Assembly (NCBI GenBank): GCA_029237605.1
Contig: JAQRGB010000001.1
Span: 62,001 to 126,000, forward strand
Source: Candidatus Thiodubiliella sp.
GTDB taxonomy: Bacteria > Pseudomonadota > Gammaproteobacteria > PS1 > Pseudothioglobaceae
Direction of reading: 5' to 3'
Length of the DNA: 64,000 nucleotides
How positions within the stretch are numbered: the stretch's first letter is position 1; every line of letters begins with the position of its first letter. Both the position numbers and the translations under genes were made by a program. Below the pieces are notes generated by a model. The model saw nothing but the letters and a program-made list of their open reading frames with translations. It did no database searches and was not told the DNA's origin. Below, piece by piece: positions 1,563 through 63,009 of the stretch.

Positions 1563-3301
1563 AAAATAGACTTGTTAAATTATTGCCATTTCTGATATGG
1601 CTTAAAGCAATTAATAAAAATACCATAAAAGAAGATATTATTGCAGGCTTTACTGGTGCAGTGGTAGTATTACCTCAGGGCGTTGCTTTTGCAACCATTG
1701 CTGGGCTTCCGCCAGAATATGGATTATACACAGCAATGGTTACCCCGATTATTGCCGCACTATTTGGTTCATCATATCATTTAGTTTCAGGCCCAACAAC
1801 AGCGATTTCAATTGTTATGTTTTCTACTATTAGCAAACATGTTGACCCAGGATCTACAGAATTCATCTCAATGGCACTTACTTTAACTTTTCTTGCTGGG
1901 GTTTATCAATTAGCATTTGGCTTAGCTAGATTTGGAACTTTGGTAAATTTTGTCTCGCATACAGTAGTTACTGGCTTTACTTTTGGTGCGGCAATTTTAA
2001 TTGCAACTAGCCAATTAAAACACATTACTGGTATTTATGTGCCTAAAGGAGAATCATTTTTACAGACTTGGGTTGATTTATATCAGGGCTCTGCTAACTT
2101 TGATGTTTATTTTCTACTAATTGCATTAGTAACACTATTTAGTTCAACTTTGTTTAAAAGATTTTTGCCGAAATCTCCTAATCTTTTAATTGGCATGATA
2201 CTAGGTAGTATTTTGGCATTTTATTTATCTAAATTTCAACTCTCAACAAATATTGAATTTGTTGGTAAAATTCCTGCACATTTGCCACCTTTATCGATGC
2301 CTTATTTTTCTCTTTCTATAATTTCTGAATTGGCGTCAGGGGCTTTTGCAATTGCACTATTAGGCTTGATTGAAGCAATTTCAATCAGTAAAGCTATTGC
2401 CACAAAGTCTAATCAAAGAATAAACTCCAATCAAGAATTTATCGGGCAAGGAATGTCTAATATATTTGCTAGTTTTTTTCTAGTTACGCAGGTTCCGGCT
2501 CTTTTACTAGATCTGGCATTAATTATGAATCTGGCGCAAAAACTCCACTTTCAGCTATTTTTGCTGCATTATTTTTAATGATTATTGTATTACTGATTGC
2601 ACCATTAACTGCTTATCTACCAATCTCTGTTATGGGTGGAGTTATTTTGTTAGTTGCTTATAATTTGATTGATATTCAGCATATTATGAAGATTTTTAAA
2701 TACAGTAAATCAGAATCTTCAATTTTAATTACAACTTTTTTAGCAACTATATTCCTTGAATTAGAATTTGCTATTTATTTAGGTGTGCTATTATCTTTGG
2801 TACTGTTTTTAGCAAAAACTTCAACACCAAGAATACCTACTTTGTCAATAGATAGTGTAGATAATAAAGGTCATAGAAATTTTACAAATATTCTAAAAAG
2901 CCACTGAGACAGTGCCTACAATTAAAAATAATTAGGGTTGATATGTCAATTTATTTTGGCTCAATCAATCATATCCAGAAAAAATTGAAAAAATATCTGA
3001 TGGACAAAATATTTATAATATTCTAATTGTTGCTAGTGGCATTAATTTTATAGATTTATCAGGTATTGAAACTTTAGCCTCTGAGCAAAATAGGTTAAAA
3101 AGAAAAGGCGGAGGCTTGTATTTTGTTGGACTTAAAGCACCAGTTTATCAATTTTTAGCACAGACTCATTTTATAGAGAAAATTGGCAGAATAAACTTTT
3201 TCGATTCTAAAGAAATTGCTATTAGCGCTATCTATAAGCGACTTAATCGTGATATATGCAGTCAATGTGATGCAAAAATATTTAATGAATGTAATTCTTA
3301 A
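1559..3301 (+). pseudogene. SulP-family anion permease with STAS domain, three frameshifts
   Basis: SLC26/SulP inner-membrane anion permease (sulfate, bicarbonate or similar). The N-terminal part reads well to about 2470: VVLPQGVAFATIAGLPPEYG and the FGSSYHLVSGPTTAIS block are SulP hallmarks. The frame then moves at a T7 run (2473-2479), again near an A5 run (2895-2899) and again at about 2970. The pieces reconnect as SFFSSYAGSGSFTRSG, then membrane segments, then a STAS domain ending DICSQCDAKIFNECNS. If all three lost bases are restored the product is about 581 residues, the usual SulP length. It overlaps nusB by 4 bases. Substrate is unknown; broken by decay or by sequence error. Confidence 0.85.
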
Positions 3302-4421: not shown

Positions 4422-4706
4422 TTAATAGCAAGTGTCATCAGTAGGGTGGCATTTTGATTTAAACCAAGAAAGTACTGTTTTTGCATCTGTAACACACCAC
4501 CAGCATGGGCAATTTTTCCATCAATAATAACGCCAGGGGATTGGCAGAACGCCATAGTCCATAATTTTTATAGTATCTTTTATTTTTTCTAAATTAATCG
4601 TTATATCATTATCGCTACAAACCTTTTTAATGAGTTTTTGCGTAACCTTACATTTATACAACCTAGCTAGCTTTCTTGGGTTAAAATTACTCAAACTCTA
4701 GTTGCA
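4422..4706 (-). pseudogene. Thioredoxin-fold small redox-active disulfide protein, frameshifted
   Basis: Remnant of the small thioredoxin-like family (TIGR00412 type). Segments in different frames read in order: KCKVTQKLIKKVCSDND, then NLEKIKDTIKIMDYGVL, then SPGVIIDGKIAHAGGV, then TDAKTVLSWFKSKCHP before a stop. The SPGVIIDGK cis-proline block and HAGGV are diagnostic. The active-site pair appears as GC...KCK with one base missing between the halves. At least three frameshifts are needed to join the pieces, so this is real decay and not one error. The proposed start is the ATG at 4706. It lies downstream of, and in the same direction as, the MBL gene. Confidence 0.7.
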
Positions 4707-4752
4707 TAAAGGTATTTTGAGCATTTGTTCTACTAATTACTTTAAAGTTTTT

Positions 4753-4767
4753 GCTACGATCCGACTT
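4753..4767. other. Embedded MGI/BGI adapter fragment, end B (3' edge of MBL gene)
   Basis: GCTACGATCCGACTT matches the last 15 bases of the reverse complement of the MGI/BGI reverse-read adapter. It abuts the C-terminal codons of the MBL-fold gene and helps form its stop codon, so the real C-terminus and the true downstream sequence are uncertain. Confidence 0.85.
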
Positions 4768-5606
4768 TATTTAAATTTTTCTTGATTAATGTTAGTTGCT
4801 GAGAGTATACCGCCATCATCTTCAATTATCTTACGAATTTTGTCACGCAAAAAGATTAAATAATCATAAGTATCTTGAGTGGCAATTTTTAAGTTTGTTA
4901 CGCTTCCATGCCCTGGTACTATAACCTTTGGTTTAAATTGTGCCATTTTTTCAAATACCTTTATCCAGCTTTTAATATTTTTTGCAGGACCTGTGCCAAG
5001 CATTCTATCTACAAACACCACATCGCCACTAAACATTATTTTTTCATCAGGCATCCATATGATAATATCACCTACTGTGTGTGCTTCCCCAAAATGATAA
5101 AGCTCTAAATGAGTTCCTTCAAAATTAAAGATTTTTTTATTATTAAAAGTTTCATTGGCATAAAAAGGTTTGGTGCCATTTAGGCTTCTACCAATTAGAA
5201 TACTTAATCTATTTAAATGATAATCAGTACGCGCAATTTGGTCATCATGGGTTTTTTGTGACGCAATAATGTTAGAACCTAATTGATAAAAATAATCATT
5301 TCCTAGCCAGCGATGATCTTGCCCCCCAGTATTTACAACATATTTAATGGGCTTTTCGGTTATGGTTTTAATGGCGTTATGAATTTGTTTCGCTCCCAAA
5401 AAACTAGCGCCGCTGTCAATTAACAACACTGATTTTTTGCCAATAATGACACCATGAGTTGAATTATTGCCAAAATTATCTTTTGATCGTTGCGAAGTCT
5501 CTCCCTTTAAAGCGTAAACATTATTACTAATCTTTACGATATTAAGAGGCACTTCTGCTACTACTACAAAAGATACTAATAAACCAACTAAAAATATTTT
5601 TTTCAT
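4767..5606 (-). CDS. Periplasmic MBL-fold hydrolase-like protein, non-canonical metal site
   Basis: Metallo-beta-lactamase-fold protein with an N-terminal signal peptide (MKKIFLVGLLVSFVVVAEV). THGVIIGKKSVLLIDSGAS is the first MBL strand pair; HTVGD (about residue 175), FSGDVVF and PGHGS are the later metal-ligand motifs. The block that normally reads THxHxDH reads NTGGQDHRWLGN, so two of the usual first-site histidines are absent while Asp-His remain. This may be a mononuclear or altered-site subfamily. The C-terminus is cut at an adapter fragment, and the stop lies on the junction, so some residues are probably missing. A thioredoxin-like pseudogene follows. The substrate cannot be told from sequence. 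Confidence 0.75.
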   Translation of the reverse strand: MKKIFLVGLLVSFVVVAEVPLNIVKISNNVYALKGETSQRSKDNFGNNSTHGVIIGKKSVLLIDSGASFLGAKQIHNAIKTITEKPIKYVVNTGGQDHRWLGNDYFYQLGSNIIASQKTHDDQIARTDYHLNRLSILIGRSLNGTKPFYANETFNNKKIFNFEGTHLELYHFGEAHTVGDIIIWMPDEKIMFSGDVVFVDRMLGTGPAKNIKSWIKVFEKMAQFKPKVIVPGHGSVTNLKIATQDTYDYLIFLRDKIRKIIEDDGGILSATNINQEKFK

Positions 5607-5851: not shown

Positions 5852-8800
5852 CTATTCTAAGTTAGGGGAGAGTAGTTTTTCTGCTTGCTCCAATGAAATG
5901 CCTTTGCGTTTGGCATAATTTTCTAGTTGTCCTTGGTTGATTTTTGCTACACCAAAATATCTGGCATCATTGTTGGCGAAATACCATCCACTGACACTAG
6001 CAGTAGGCAGCATGGCGAATGAACTAGTAAGAGTCATGCCTGTATGCTTTTCTACATCAAGTAAACCCCACAGTTTTTCTTTTTCACTATGTTCTGGACA
6101 GGACGGGTAACCTGGAGCAGGGCGGATGCCATCAAACTTTTCTCGCATGAGTTGGTTGTTATCAAATGCCTCAGTGCTATAACCCCAAAATTCGGTGCGT
6201 AGCTTAAAGTGCATAAGCTCGGTAAAGGCTTCAGCTAGACGGTCAGCCACGGCTTTAATCATAATTGAATTATAATCATCATGGTCGGCTTCAAATGTGG
6301 TAATTAGTGGTTCGATGTTAATGCCAGCGGTAACGGCAAAAGCACCAAGTCGGATCGTAGCCATGTCGTTCTGTGAGCCAAGGAGTTGGGTCTAGTAAAA
6401 TCACTTAAACAAAAATTTGGGGTATTACCTTTCTTATCCAGTTGTTGACGTAGATGATTAAGAATTATTAAAACCTTATTATTTTCATCATACAATTCAA
6501 TATCTTCATTGACACTATTGGCTGGGAATATGCCAATAACGGCATTGGCGGTGAGTAGTTTTTCGTCAATAACTTTTTTAAACATTTGCTTCGCATCAGT
6601 AAATAGTTGAGAAGCAGATTCTCCGACTACTTTATCCGTTAAGATGTCAGGGAATTTGCCAGCTAATTCCCAAGTGCGGAAAAATGGCATCCAATCAATA
6701 AATTTGAAAATTTCAGCCAAGTCGTAGTCTTTAAAAACATGAACGCCTAATTTTTTAGGTCTAACAATAGTATTGAAAGATAGTTTTGGCTTGTTAGCTC
6801 TAGCTTTTTCCAAAGATATTAGCTTGCTTTTACCTTTATTAGCGCGACGCTGTCGCACTATTTCATAGTCGACCTTGGTATCGGCTAAAAGCTGTGGTTT
6901 AAGGGTTGTGGATAGTATAGCACTTACTATACCAACAGATTTGGAGGCGTCTTGCACATAAAACACACCTTTGTCATATTCGGGCTCAATTTTCACCGCT
7001 GTATGCGCTTTGGAAGTAGTAGCACCACCAATCATTAAGGGTAATTCAAACCCTTGGCGGGTCATTTCCTTGGCAACAGATACCATTTCATCAAGTGATG
7101 GGGTGATGAGCCCAGAAAGCCCAATAATATCGACATTTTCTTTTTTAGCAGTTTCTAAAATAGTCTCAGCAGGTACCATCACACCTAAATCAATGATTTC
7201 ATAGTTGTTACAAGACAGCACAACACCCACAATATTTTTACCAATATCATGTACATCGCCTTTAACGGTTGCCATGAGGATTTTGCCTTGTGAAGTAGGA
7301 GTACAATCTTGTTTTTCAGCTTCTAAGAATGGGTCTAGGTAAGCCACTGATTTTTTCATCACGCGGGCAGATTTAACCACTTGTGGTAAGAACATTTTAC
7401 CTGCACCAAACAAATCACCGACGATGTTCATACCACTCATTAGCGGGCCTTCGATAACGAGAATAGGGCGACCCAATTTATCAAAGGCTTCTTGGGTGTC
7501 TTCGTCAATGTATTTGGTAATGCCTTTAACTAGCGCATGTTCTAGGCGTTTTTCCACTGCCCATGTGCGCCATTCTAAGTCTTTTTTATTGTCTTTTTGC
7601 TCACCTGTGCCAGAAAACTTTGCGGCAATATCCACCAAGCGTTCACCTGCTTGTTCATCAGCATTAAGTACCACATCTTCAACGCATTTTTTGAGTTCTG
7701 GGTCAATATCATCATAAACCACCAACTGACCTGCATTGACAATGCCCATGGTCATGCCAGCTTTTACTGCGTGATATAAAAATACGGAGTGAATTGCCTC
7801 GCGTACAAGGAGTTGTAAGAGACCCTTGTCTTCCTAAGACCGCTTGGCCTCCGACTTTGAGATTTTGGCGTGGGGCAGGGTGTTGATAATCTCAAGGGTG
7901 GCTTCAATAAAATCAACGCCATAGTTGTTATGCTCTTCAATGCCTGTAGCAACCGCAAAAATATTAGGGTCAAAAATAATATCTTCAGGCGGAAAATCAA
8001 CTTCATTAACCAGGATGTTATAGGCATTGGTACAAATTTCTATTTTGCGTGCTTGTGTATCTGCCTGACCTGCTTCATCAAATGCCATAACGATAATCGC
8101 CGCACCGTAACGCTTGCATAGATGTGCGTATTTAACAAAGCTTTCCTTGCCTTCTTTGAGTGAGATAGAATTAACAATCGGCTTACCCTGTGTGCATTTA
8201 AGCCCAGCTTCGATAATATTCCACTTACTTGAATCTACCATAATAGGCACTTTGGAGATATCCGGCTCAGAAGCAATTAGGTTCATAAAGCGCATCATGG
8301 CAACTTTACCATCAAGCATACCTTCATCCATATTGATGTCAACCACTTGCGCGCCATCTTCGACCTGTGCACGACAAATATCAAGCGCTTCTTCGTATTC
8401 CTCATTTAGGATTAGGCGTTTAAATTTCGCAGAACCGGTAATATTAGCGCGTTCACCAATATTGACAAACAAAGAGTCACTACCAATATTAAAGGCCTCT
8501 AAACCTGATAATCGGCATTCTAATGGTATTTCTGGTATTTCCCTAGGTGCTAAACCATCAATAGCATCAGCAATGGCTTTAATGTGCTCAGGGGTGGAGC
8601 CACAGCAGCCCCCTAAGATGTTAACCAAACCTGAAGTTGCCCATTCACTGACTTGCTCGCTCATTGTACTAGCATCTAAATCATATTCGCCAAATTCATT
8701 AGGTAAGCCAGCATTTGGATGGGCTGAGACAAAGCAATCTGCCACACGCGACATTTCAGCCACATATTGGCGCAACAAATCAGGCCCAAGTGCACAGTTA

Positions 8801-9525
8801 AGTCGGATCGTAGCCATGTCGTTCTGTGAGCCAAGGAGTTGGGTCTAGTCAGTTACTTGACCAGATAGAGTTCGCCCTGAAGCGTCTGTGATAGTACCTG
8901 AAATCATAATTGGTAATTTAACGCCATCGTCTTCAAACACCTGTTGTACTGCGAAAATAGCTGCTTTAGCATTGAGTGTATCAAATATAGTTTCAATTAA
9001 GATAATATCTACACCGCCTTCAATCAATCCACGAGTTGACTGTGAATAAACACCAACCAACTCATCAAAGCTCACATTTCTAAAACCTGGGTCGTTAACA
9101 TCAGGAGAAAGCGAACAAGTACGTGAAGTAGGGCCTATAACACCAGCAACAAAGCGTGGCTTGTCATTTGTTGAAAACTCATTACAAGCCTGTTTGGCTA
9201 GTTTGGCACTTTTTACATTAATTTCATATACTAAATTTTGCATCTTATAATCCGCCATAGAAGTACTAGAGGCGTTAAAAGTATTGGTTTCAATAATATC
9301 AGCACCAACTTCCAAATAAGAACGGTGTATATCTTGAATAATTTTTGGCTGAGTTATACTTAGTAGATCGTTATTACCCTGAACAAGGGTAGCGCAATCC
9401 TTAAAACGTTCACCACGATAATCTTTTTCCGTGAGTTTGTGCTTCTGAATCATCGTGCCCATAGCTCCGTCCAATACTAGGATTCGCTGTTGTAAAATGG
9501 ATTGTAGTAACTGTTGTGTATTCAT
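5852..9525 (-). CDS. metH: Cobalamin-dependent methionine synthase, split into four segments by adapters
   Basis: Transfers methyl from methyltetrahydrofolate to homocysteine through cobalamin. Read from 9525 leftwards the domains are in normal order: homocysteine domain ([12 protein letters not shown]; zinc cysteines in [11 protein letters not shown]), pterin domain ([18 protein letters not shown]), B12 domain ([16 protein letters not shown]) and AdoMet reactivation domain ([15 protein letters not shown]). Breaks at 8800-8848, 7806-7857 and 6347-6395 are adapter sequence. At each, a few to about 15 conserved residues are lost, for example the stretch between LPHAKIS and [14 protein letters not shown]. 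The biological gene is almost certainly one intact ORF of about 1,200 codons; the segments 8845-9525, about 7858-8799, about 6396-7805 and 5852-6346 should not be kept as separate genes. Confidence 0.93.
6347..6395. other. Embedded MGI/BGI adapter, end B, in metH
   Basis: Starts AAGTCGGATCGTAGCCATG and contains all 42 bases of the MGI/BGI reverse-read adapter (6347-6388), followed by GGTCTAG, which recurs after the same adapter at 8842-8848. On the minus strand it falls between the NFCLSDF and GAFAVTAG blocks of MetH. Confidence 0.97.
7806..7857. other. Embedded MGI/BGI double adapter with probable 10-base barcode, in metH
   Basis: Plus strand 7826-7857 is the full 32-base reverse complement of adapter end A. 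7806-7815 (CAAGGAGTTG) is the terminal ten bases of adapter end B. The ten bases between them (TAAGAGACCC, 7816-7825) sit exactly where the sample barcode lies in an MGI library. On the minus strand the insert separates LPHAKIS from VREAIHSVF of MetH. Confidence 0.95.
8800..8848. other. Embedded MGI/BGI adapter, end B, in metH
   Basis: 8800-8841 is the complete 42-base end B adapter, again followed by GGTCTAG. On the minus strand it replaces the MetH residues between [10 protein letters not shown] and [14 protein letters not shown]. Confidence 0.97.
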
Positions 9526-9597: not shown

Positions 9598-9605
9598 GTT
9601 ATAAT
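9598..9605 (+). promoter_or_regulatory. Probable -10 element before the GNY-repeat protein gene
   Basis: GTTATAAT places a consensus TATAAT at 9600-9605, with TATG just before it. It lies about 38 bases upstream of the start codon at 9643, which has a GGAGA ribosome site at 9632-9636. No good -35 match is visible, so only the -10 is proposed. Confidence 0.5.
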
Positions 9606-9642
9606 GCAAAAACTATTTGATCATTAATCATGGAGAAACAAA

Positions 9643-10020
9643 ATGAAAAGACTATTTATAATTACATTGCTTACAGTGTCATTAGGCGTGAATGCTTTTT
9701 GGGGTAACAACTATAACGGTTATGGATATCAACAAGATAATGGCATTTTTGGCTTTAACCCTTATAATTTTTGGGATCCTCGTTGGTACCCTGAAGAAAT
9801 GAGTAATATGTTTGATGAATTCGATGACGATGACTGGAATAATAACAATGGTTATAGCTATAATCCATATAATAAAAATCGTTACAATCCATATAATAAA
9901 AATCGTTACAATCCATATAATAGAAATGGTTATAATTTATACAACAAAAATTACCGCAATATACCGTGGAATAACGCCACTAATTATGGTAATAATAATC
10001 CAATAATAAGCACTAAATAA
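9643..10020 (+). CDS. Secreted Gly/Asn/Tyr-rich repeat protein, sulfur-globule-protein-like
   Basis: 125 residues: a signal peptide (MKRLFIITLLTVSLGVNA, then FWGNNYNGYGY) and a mature part dominated by Asn, Tyr, Gly and Pro, with an acidic patch (FDEFDDDDW) and about four copies of an 8-residue NPYNKNRY unit. This composition and the export signal match sulfur globule envelope proteins of sulfur-oxidising bacteria, which are short, secreted and repetitive. Assignment is by composition only, so another surface or matrix protein is possible. It has its own promoter-like -10 and a good GGAGA ribosome site, and is divergent from metH. Confidence 0.6.
   Translation: MKRLFIITLLTVSLGVNAFWGNNYNGYGYQQDNGIFGFNPYNFWDPRWYPEEMSNMFDEFDDDDWNNNNGYSYNPYNKNRYNPYNKNRYNPYNRNGYNLYNKNYRNIPWNNATNYGNNNPIISTK
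9862..9957 (+). repeat. Four tandem 24-bp units coding NPYNKNRY-type repeats
   Basis: Units at 9862-9885, 9886-9909, 9910-9933 and 9934-9957. The first two are identical, the third differs at three positions, the fourth is more diverged. The 24-bp period keeps the frame, so copy-number change would lengthen the secreted protein in steps of eight residues. Confidence 0.9.
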
Positions 10021-10117: not shown

Positions 10118-10516
10118 ATGAGTAATGATTGTATTTTTTGTACATTAAGAGATGAGCGTGTTATTGGTGAATGTAATTACACAAAAACCTTTATTGATAG
10201 CTATCCAGCATCCCCAGGGCATACACTAATTGTACCTAAAAGACATTTTGCAACTTATTTTGAAGCTACAAAAGAAGAATTATTAGCCATCGGTAAGGCT
10301 GTGCAAAATGCTAAGATAATCTTAGATAAGGAGTTTTCACCTGATGGTTATAATATTGGTATTAACAATGAACAAGCAGCAGGTCAAAGTGTAATGCATC
10401 TTCATGTGCATTTAATTCCAAGGTATAAAGGTGATGTTAAAGATCCAAAAGGAGGTGTGCGCTGGATATTAAGGAATAAAGCAAATTACTGGGATGGTAA
10501 AGAAAAACACTGTTAG
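10118..10516 (+). CDS. HIT family nucleotide-binding hydrolase
   Basis: Histidine-triad protein of 132 residues, cytoplasmic, of the kind that hydrolyses or transfers nucleoside phosphoramidates or dinucleoside polyphosphates. CIFCTLRDERVIGE is the usual N-terminus (zinc-type CxxC), SYPASPGHTLIVPKRH is the conserved core and MHLHVHLIPR carries the HxHxH catalytic triad. The exact substrate is not predictable. It is convergent with ssb across a perfect AT palindrome. Confidence 0.88.
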   Translation: MSNDCIFCTLRDERVIGECNYTKTFIDSYPASPGHTLIVPKRHFATYFEATKEELLAIGKAVQNAKIILDKEFSPDGYNIGINNEQAAGQSVMHLHVHLIPRYKGDVKDPKGGVRWILRNKANYWDGKEKHC

Positions 10517-10638: not shown

Positions 10639-11106
10639 CTAGAATGGAATATCATCATCAAAATCACTGTTATCAACAGGTGCAATAGGATCAACAACAG
10701 CTTGTTGTGCAGGTGGTGATGTGACAGGGTCAGATTGTTGTGTGGCGCTACCTACGTTATCACGACGATCTAGCATTTGCAAAGTACCGTTAAACCCCGA
10801 TACAACAACTTCAGTGGTATAGCGGTCAGCTCCTGATTGATCTTGCCATTTACGCGTTTGTAATTTGCCCTCTACATAAACTTTAGATCCTTTATCTAAA
10901 TATTGACCAGCTATTTCAGCTAATTTGCCAAATAAACTTACACGGTGCCATTCAGTTTTTTCCTGTTTTTGACCTGTATTTTTATCTGTCCAAGATTCAC
11001 TTGTTGCAACTGATAAATTAGTCATTGCATTGCCAGCTTGGCTGTATTTTATTTCTGGTTTTGCACCTAAATTACCAACTAAAATTACTTTATTAATGCC
11101 TGCCAT
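10639..11106 (-). CDS. ssb: Single-stranded DNA-binding protein
   Basis: 155 residues. The N-terminal OB fold runs from [20 protein letters not shown] through [20 protein letters not shown] to about residue 112. A Gln/Pro/Asp-rich linker follows, and the tail DFDDDIPF is the acidic tip that recruits replication and repair partners. The length is a little under that of E. coli SSB because of a shorter linker. It is transcribed after the MFS gene, 22 bases away. Confidence 0.96.
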
Positions 11107-13252: not shown

Positions 13253-15381
13253 ATGACTTTGCCAGAAAAAAGAATTCTAATTAGTGACTTATGCAAAGTA
13301 CTAAATACTTATATGTCAAAAGATCAGATTAAAGGCGTTTATCAAGCTTATATATTAGCAGCAACATCTCATGATGGGCAGTATCGAAAATCAGGTGAGG
13401 CTTATGTGTTTCATCCAATTAATGTGGCGATGATTTTAGCAGAATTGAAATTAGATTACCATTGTATTGTTGCAGCGTTACTGCACGATTGCATTGAAGA
13501 CACTACGCTTACGCGAGAAGATATTATTCGAGATTTTGATGAAGAAGTGGCGCATATCGTAGATGGAGTTTCAAAATTAACTGGTTTAGAATTTCGCTCA
13601 AATATTGAGCAACAAGCGCAAAACTTTAGAAAATTGTTCCTAGCAATGAGTACAGATATGCGAGTAATGATGATTAAACTAGCTGACCGTCTACACAATA
13701 TGCGCACGCTACAATCAATAAAACATGAAAAACAACAAAGAATTGCCAAAGAAACTATTGAAATTCACGCACCAATTGCACGTCGTCTAGGTCTGAATAA
13801 TATCAACAAAGAGTTAGAAGAGCTATGTTTTAAGTACATTTACCCTTATCGTTATCAGGTTTTAAAGCATAAAATTAACAAGCGTTATGGTAATTTAAAA
13901 GAGATTATTGAAAAAATTCAGGATGAAATTAGATCTCGCTTAGAGCAGGAAGGATTGAGTGATATTAAAACTAGTGGGCGCAGAAAAACAACATCTAGTA
14001 TCTATAAAAAGATGAAAAATAATCATCTTAAATTTTCTGAAATACTTGATGTGTATGCATTTAGAGTTATTGTTGATAATATGCCTCAGTGTTATCAAAC
14101 ATTAGGTATTGTTCATAATTTATACAAGCCTGTACCTGGTAAATTTAAAGATTATATTGCGCTACCAAAGATTAATGGCTATCAGTCTCTACACACGGTG
14201 TTATTTGGCCCAAACAAAGTTTATATCGAGGTGCAAATTCGCACAAAAGAAATGCATTTTATCTCTGAATACGGTATTGCAGCACATTGGCACTATAAAA
14301 GCAAAAATGTTAATACTTCAAAATTAGCTGGTAATTGGATAGCTTCATTATTAGATATTCAGCAAAATTCAGATACTTCCATTGAATTTCTAGAGGGAAC
14401 TAAAGATGACTTATCATCTTCAGAAGTATTTGTTTTTACACCTGAGGGCGAAATCATTCAGTTACCATATAAGTCCACAGTATTAGATTTTGCCTATGCT
14501 ATCCATACTAATGTTGGTAATAGGGCGCTAGCGGCTAAAGTTAACCAAGTGAATATTAAATTTAATACTGAGTTGAAATCAGGACAAACGATTGAAATTA
14601 TTACCAATAAAAATGCTAGACCACTTCCATCTTGGTTAAAAATTGTAACTACAACAAAAGCAAAGACCTCGATCAAAAACAGTTTACAGGAAGAATCGGC
14701 CTCTAAATTAATACGACTAGGTGAATACTTACTTACTAATGCCTTAGATTACCAAGGTTATGTAGAGCCTATTAGTGAAAAAAATGGCAAACTTGCTTGC
14801 AAAATTTAAAGTGCTCTTCTAAAGAAGATTTGTATATGAAAATCGCTCTATCAGATATATTGATATCTTTTGTGCTTAATATAATCCAAGGTAACAATGG
14901 AGATGAATTAAATAACCGTATTAGCATTAAAAGCATCAAAGAAAACTCTATCAGCTGTGCACGTTGTTGTTATCCTATTCCAGGCGATAAGGTGGCCGGC
15001 CTATTGACCAATAATGGCCTAGTACTACATAGGTTTGATTGTGGCAATTTGCTTCGTGCTAAGCAAAAACATGAGCAATGGTTAAATGTGGACTGGCATG
15101 CAGATAAAGATGAAGAATTTGAGGTATTGATTCGCATAGAAAACGATAATCGTCGCGGTATGTTAGCGTCTATCGCCAGTGCTATTGCTAAATCTAATGT
15201 TAATATCGAATTTTTAGAAATAGAAGAAAGCAATGGCTCGATGAAGGGATTAAAATTACTAATTAGTGTATTGGGCATTTCGCAATTAGATGAAGCAATA
15301 TATGCTATTAAAAATTTAAAATTTGTACATTCTGTGAATAGAGTTAGTAATAAAAAAATAGTACTTATGGCTTTAATTTAG
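13253..15381 (+). CDS. spoT: Bifunctional (p)ppGpp synthetase/hydrolase, one-base frameshift
   Basis: Makes and degrades (p)ppGpp in the stringent response. The HD hydrolase domain is intact (YVFHPINVAMIL, then LLHDCIEDT). The synthetase domain shows FKDYIALPKINGYQSLHT, and EYGIAAHWHYK and a TGS domain (VFVFTPEGEIIQLP) follow. The frame is lost at an A7 run (14778-14784); adding one A joins PISEKKWQTCLQNLKCS to the C-terminal half, which carries CCYPIPGDK and an ACT domain. The restored length is 709 residues, as expected for SpoT. As written, the protein would lose its regulatory C-terminal region. Confidence 0.92.

Positions 15382-61066: not shown

Positions 61067-63009
<1,943 letters not shown>

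Follow-up and report, generated by a model that had tools for sequence, protein, structure and literature searches.

A predicted exported protein with a 24-bp repeat tail

The window, as the whole 64-kb stretch of DNA analysed is called here, carries at 9643-10020 (+) an ORF of 125 aa with an ATG start and a TAA stop. It lies between a metH-like gene and a gene for a HIT-domain protein, the latter identified by a Pfam match; the names metH, ssb, MFS, bamD and relA were assigned from sequence reading. The features of the locus are as follows.

9600-9605 (+): possible -10 element TATAAT, by eye
9632-9635 (+): possible ribosome-binding site GGAG, by eye
9643-10020 (+): ORF of 125 aa, predicted exported Asn/Tyr-rich protein, putative sulfur-globule coat protein of a Thioglobaceae family
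9643-9696 (+): likely Sec signal peptide, residues 1-18, with a V-N-A end, by eye
9736-9825 (+): conserved core DNGIFGFNPYNFWDPRWYPEEMSNMFDEFD, residues 32-61, from alignment A1
9862-9957 (+): four 24-bp units encoding NPYNKNRY-like octapeptides, the first two identical and the last two diverged
5852-9525 (-): metH-like gene, conserved neighbour, with two in-frame TAG codons and one frameshift; name from sequence reading
10118-10516 (+): HIT-domain protein, conserved neighbour; Pfam PF01230 and synteny
10639-11106 (-): single-strand DNA-binding protein (ssb), conserved neighbour; name from sequence reading

The N-terminus of the protein, MKRLFIITLLTVSLGVNA followed by FW, shows by eye the basic start, hydrophobic stretch and V-N-A end of an export signal. 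Alignment with its relatives (alignment A1, 32 sequences) revealed that M1, K2, N17 and F19 are invariant in this region and that A18 is nearly so, while 12 of the alignment's 18 invariant columns fall in the core DNGIFGFNPYNFWDPRWYPEEMSNMFDEFD. The mature part, predicted to comprise 107 aa (13.2 kDa), contains no Cys and is strongly hydrophilic (GRAVY -1.74). With a composition of 28% Asn, 15% Tyr, 7.5% Gly and 7.5% Pro, it is therefore Asn/Tyr-rich and not notably Gly-rich. AlphaFold prediction was uninformative for the window protein (mean pLDDT 50.8) and gave a mean pLDDT of 51.4 for one phage relative; the models contain a signal helix and one core helix, both of low confidence.

Within the repeat tail, the identical 24-bp units occupy 9862-9885 and 9886-9909, and the diverged pair 9910-9957. 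The exact match at lag 24 extends over 37 bases, a length never reached in shuffled versions of the ORF, where no lag from 6 to 120 gave a run longer than 14 bases in 500 dinucleotide shuffles or 15 bases in 2000 codon-order shuffles. This array ranks first among the tandem arrays of the window, with a score of 131 against 56 for the next. A first-pass annotation had described an export signal, exact 24-bp repeats with two identical copies and a Gly/Asn/Tyr-rich mature part. The repeats are borne out at 9862-9909 by the 37-base run, and the signal, seen by eye, is kept across the 32-sequence alignment; the composition holds for Asn and Tyr and falls short for Gly. A second Gly/Tyr repeat protein considered at 62973-63003 of the window was rejected, as these positions are the end of a GroEL-like ORF (named from sequence).

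A protein family at a conserved locus in Thioglobaceae

When 58 genomes were searched at the protein level, matches to the window protein turned up in 31. Two of these were discounted: G034, whose match has an E of 0.037 and lies in a 797-aa frame, and G056, which belongs to another family (E 0.004). This leaves 29 of 37 genomes for the family of the window, which we take to be Thioglobaceae. The 32 sequences of alignment A1 share the core DNG[IM]FGxNPYxxWDPRWYxEEMxNMxDEFD and a common layout of signal, core and Asn/Gly/Tyr-rich tail, which is often repetitive and varies in length between species. No match to the window protein was found among the Pfam and NCBIfam models. As judged from the sequences, this is an uncatalogued protein family and not a lone ORF.

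Comparison of 16 Thioglobaceae loci revealed that both metH and the HIT gene flank the family member in 9, one of them in 6, and neither in 1; several of the compared stretches end early, and the case with neither neighbour is a short contig. No sulfur-oxidation gene was seen adjoining a family member in the bacterial loci compared, which counts against a role as a globule coat protein. Several relatives contain tandem paralogues. In G031, which we take to be the genome of EF1, three tandem members lie at 13440-14751 in the conserved locus, with weaker matches elsewhere. Beside the WDPRWY type, Thioglobaceae also have paralogues whose core reads WTPM[YF]W (L024:938-1408, L027:429-899, L031:2910-3344); in the tree, this second type clusters with relatives from other families.

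Single-protein tblastn searches returned no match from plasmid records with query L044, nor from named phage records with query L014. In a draw from the phylum searched with profile A2, the sole match among 398 genomes was the window's own genome; since at most 10 candidates per genome were scored, this is weak evidence of absence elsewhere.

Co-occurrence with dsrA

The reverse-Dsr marker dsrA (TIGR02064) was detected in 32 of the 37 Thioglobaceae genomes, including a contig-end fragment in G015 and genes in pieces in G000, G016 and G027. All 29 family-positive genomes are dsrA-positive and all 5 dsrA-less genomes lack the family (p = 1.3e-4, a value whose weight is limited by the five belonging to two genera, g3 and g9). 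Three dsrA-positive Thioglobaceae genomes without the family (G001, G009 and G025) argue against the coat reading; G009 matches profile A2 by the signal end alone and was not counted as positive.

In a draw of 369 genomes from the class, profile A1 matched 16, four of them from the window's family; this count is a lower bound, as the dsrA-positive genome G045 was missed by A1 and found by A2, and the match in G051 covers the signal end only. Distant relatives occur in 12 of the 365 genomes outside the window's family, 10 of the 12 being dsrA-positive at a uniform threshold. In most of these relatives, a WDPRYWMEEM- or WTPMYWMEEM-like core lies between a start resembling an export signal and a Gly/Tyr/Pro-rich tail. 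Counted at E<=1e-60, dsrA is present in 14 of the 16 A1-positive genomes against 103 of the 353 others (p = 4e-6). The figure of 14 is the unbiased one and leaves out G254, whose split dsrA lies just above the E limit and was seen on a laxer look taken since G254 had matched.

The first-pass annotation had named homologues in non-sulfur bacteria as the finding that would speak against a globule protein. With dsrA as the marker, the homologues lie largely in sulfur oxidisers, G254 joining the 14 on the laxer look, and the exception is G351, which contains a distant relative and matches to PF17228 (Sulphur globule protein). Its lack of dsrA is a point against the coat reading. Photosynthetic reaction centre genes (Photo_RC) were found in none of the 84 dsrA- or PF17228-positive genomes (sets of 36 and 48). 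Near a distant relative, on the opposite strand, we also observed another exported-looking, Gly/Trp/Met-rich repeat protein (L050:704-1318), with a similar ORF in L051.

Comparison with known sulfur globule proteins

PF17228, which we take to represent the SgpA/SgpB type, served as a yardstick. The window protein has no match to this profile at E<=10 (gathering score 26.7 bits), and membership of the family was rejected on that ground. SUP05 bacteria and their relatives in mussel and clam symbioses are important in the dark-ocean sulfur cycle, yet the Pfam globule family was found in 0 of the 37 Thioglobaceae genomes (E<=0.01). Set beside the presence of the window family in 29 of the 37, this indicates a lineage that lacks the catalogued globule family and has the window family instead, which is a defined and testable candidate, with a single core motif, for the missing coat protein.

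Across the class draw, PF17228 matched 55 of 369 genomes, 49 of which are dsrA-positive. The two families resemble one another as small low-complexity proteins of rDsr sulfur oxidisers with a similar tie to dsrA (49/55 against 14/16), whereas their core motifs are unlike. Both are present in 7 of the 16 A1-positive genomes, including G051 with its signal-end match.

PMC10386293 describes SgpC and SgpD of Allochromatium vinosum as exported and globule-associated, lists masses of 13, 12.6 and 11 kDa for SgpA, SgpB and SgpC, and calls SgpA-C extremely hydrophobic. With its 13.2 kDa mature part, the window protein lies within or near this 11-13 kDa class and was counted as belonging to it, and it is likened to SgpC (Alvin_1325) and SgpD by their published description only; its hydrophilic character (GRAVY -1.74), in contrast, is unlike that described for SgpA-C. 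The features of globule-envelope proteins found here are an export signal (by eye and in the alignment), the size of the window protein, and the occurrence of its family in reverse-Dsr sulfur oxidisers, with the exceptions of G351 on one side and G001, G009 and G025 on the other.

Sgp proteins have been reported earlier in SUP05. According to PMC6509183, 'Ca. Thioglobus autotrophicus' EF1 has its globules in the periplasm and four putative sgp genes in its genome, and three Sgp proteins were differentially expressed. EF1 belongs to the same bacterial family as the source of the window protein and holds the three tandem members at the conserved locus, and this trio likely corresponds to sgp genes of that report.

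Relatives in phages and their gene neighbourhoods

Scanning of IMG/VR with A1 retrieved 29 records, and scanning with the phage alignment A3 retrieved 45, including those 29. The 45 records (L084-L112, L130-L165) encode 29 distinct translations in 19 clusters at 85% identity; the frameshifted L143 and the contig-end-cut L165 count among the 29 translations, and L143 is one of the 19 clusters. The phage relatives are mostly 83-106 aa long and consist of a signal, the core and a short end, with no repeat tail; in two clusters (L087; L106/L107) the core is present twice.

Comparison with PHROG identified phage genes in several of these records: DNA polymerase, primase/helicase and phage RNA polymerase in the record of L098; DNA ligase and a PhoH-like protein in that of L102; DNA ligase in that of L106; topoisomerase II, primase, exonuclease and a PhoH-like protein in G425, the record of L107; a neck protein in that of L091; and a portal protein among the 42 ORFs of G416, G420 and G409. 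For the remaining records, most of the 45, the assignment to phages follows IMG/VR. A tree built from 67 core sequences places the phage rows on one side of a branch (92/86) lying within the Thioglobaceae rows; with 62 columns, branches that are long and a bootstrap that had not settled, this placement is indicative only. The tree used five distant relatives, left out L143, L165, duplicates, L005 and L020, and included L106 as two parts.

Analysis of the neighbourhoods revealed tusA, dsrC or dsrA near the SGP-like gene in 6 of the 19 phage clusters. The gene order SGP-like, TusA (PF01206), DsrC was found in L086/L088 and in L085, with DsrC assigned by PF04358 in L086 and by similarity in L085. 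TusA follows the SGP-like gene in L095/L096, and its start lies directly after that gene, at the contig end, in L094 and L097. L106/L107 have the SGP-like gene followed by two dsrA genes, with TusA and DsrC further on. A DsrC-like gene lies ~0.3 kb downstream in L084 and L153-155 (PF04358 in L084 and L153), and ~11 kb away in the record of L102 (G420). The covered flanks of the other 13 clusters, many of them ended by the contig, contain none of tusA, dsrC and dsrA, which weighs against the coat reading. Across the records, whole-record searches of 29 detected dsrA in 2; for the other 16 of the 45 the search covered the flanks.

Directly upstream of the SGP-like gene in L091 lies an ORF (4641-4970) whose score against PF17228, 18.8 bits, falls short of the 26.7-bit cut-off; an identical ORF lies upstream in L090, L092 and L093. 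Because of this sub-threshold resemblance, a single phage may encode globule-like proteins of two kinds. An ammonium-transporter gene was also observed near the SGP-like gene in two phage records, at L099:5894-7054 (PF00909) and L096:2163-3332 (by eye).

Sulfur auxiliary genes already known from phages include dsrA, dsrC/tusE, soxYZ, soxC and soxD, according to the available parts of PMC8190135 and PMC4164917, and the former lists TusA among the common proteins of such phages. The phages found here are of the same kind, L106/L107 carrying two dsrA genes, tusA and dsrC together with the SGP-like gene. In the accessible text of PMC8190135 no globule protein is named, the word 'globule' occurring twice, both times for sulfur storage, and 'sgp' nowhere; neither word occurs in that of PMC4164917. 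Among the matches listed from open-licence papers, none reports a phage globule protein in its title or the opening of its abstract.

Proposed function and alternative explanations

We predict, with fairly good confidence, that the product of this gene is a small protein with a structural role in sulfur globules of the periplasm. The reading that best accommodates the data is probably that of a lineage-specific sulfur-globule coat protein whose core doubles as a phage auxiliary gene, the coat role, the binding to globules, the periplasmic location and any effect of the phage copies being predictions. The first-pass annotation, which had proposed a sulfur globule protein, thus pointed largely in the right direction: the tie to dsrA, the EF1 genes and the phage relatives beside tusA, dsrC or dsrA accord with its proposal, while the missing PF17228 match and the hydrophilic composition do not.

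In the proposed mechanism, the protein would be exported by Sec and its signal removed after Ala18. The conserved aromatic and acidic core would direct assembly at the surface of a forming sulfur grain, and the Asn/Tyr-rich repeat tail would be a low-complexity part of variable length that contributes weak multivalent contacts and evolves fast as units are gained and lost. Phages keep the core and lack the repeats, and some carry it beside tusA, dsrC or dsrA, which suggests that the core is the functional part and has a role in the handling of stored sulfur. The same pattern would suggest that phages gain by acting on stored sulfur. We lean, by a small degree, towards a model in which SUP05-type phages carry stripped-down globule coat proteins in a TusA/DsrC/DsrA cassette, where they would loosen, re-coat or enlarge the globule, with its sulfur feeding a Dsr pathway boosted by the phage. 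The phage relatives raise the question whether viral control extends beyond sulfur enzymes to the sulfur store; if it does, coat proteins of storage granules would join the auxiliary metabolic genes as a new class.

A different explanation is that the protein is a secreted low-complexity component of the envelope or surface, serving in adhesion, host contact or as periplasmic filler, and that its association with sulfur oxidation reflects shared ancestry only. The hydrophilic composition fits such a protein, as does the lack of sulfur-oxidation genes alongside it in the bacterial loci, and the joint absence with dsrA within Thioglobaceae rests on two genera. Against it stand the dsrA-positive state, at the uniform threshold, of 10 of the 12 genomes with distant relatives outside the family (12 of 365 genomes), the presence of the family in free-living EF1 as well as in symbionts, and tusA, dsrC or dsrA near the phage relatives in 6 of 19 clusters. 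We consider this explanation unlikely. At the far end, the low complexity and the 24-bp repeat would fit a short repetitive ORF that serves no function, but the matches in 29 of 37 family genomes, the core kept in 32 aligned sequences and retained in phages, and the same locus in the relatives checked make this very improbable.

The protein might instead be a periplasmic accessory in sulfur handling that forms no coat, for example by bringing polysulfide or Sox/Dsr partners to the globule. The phage order of SGP-like gene, TusA and DsrC resembles a sulfur-trafficking cassette, and the structural-looking tail is absent from the phage relatives. Against this, the mature window protein has no cysteine and would thus be unable to carry persulfide sulfur itself. 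It also has an export signal, whereas the known TusA and DsrC proteins reside in the cytoplasm. An accessory role appears less likely still than an envelope or surface role, and a globule coat protein remains the preferred assignment.

Frame breaks and other features of the window

Several genes of the window are interrupted. The metH-like gene at 5852-9525 (-), with its two in-frame TAG codons and one frameshift, is open in the Bathymodiolus symbiont contig L032; the interruptions may reflect decay or an assembly error. The frame of a relA-like gene (13253-15381) breaks close to an A7 run, and the gene at 2578-3292 is spread over three frames. The dsrA gene of the same genome is likewise in two pieces (G000:C41:46293-48579). 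These frame breaks may be indel errors in the assembly. Beyond the metH-like gene, the window contains at 4767-5606 (-) a gene for a metallo-beta-lactamase-fold protein (PF00753) with a signal-like start.
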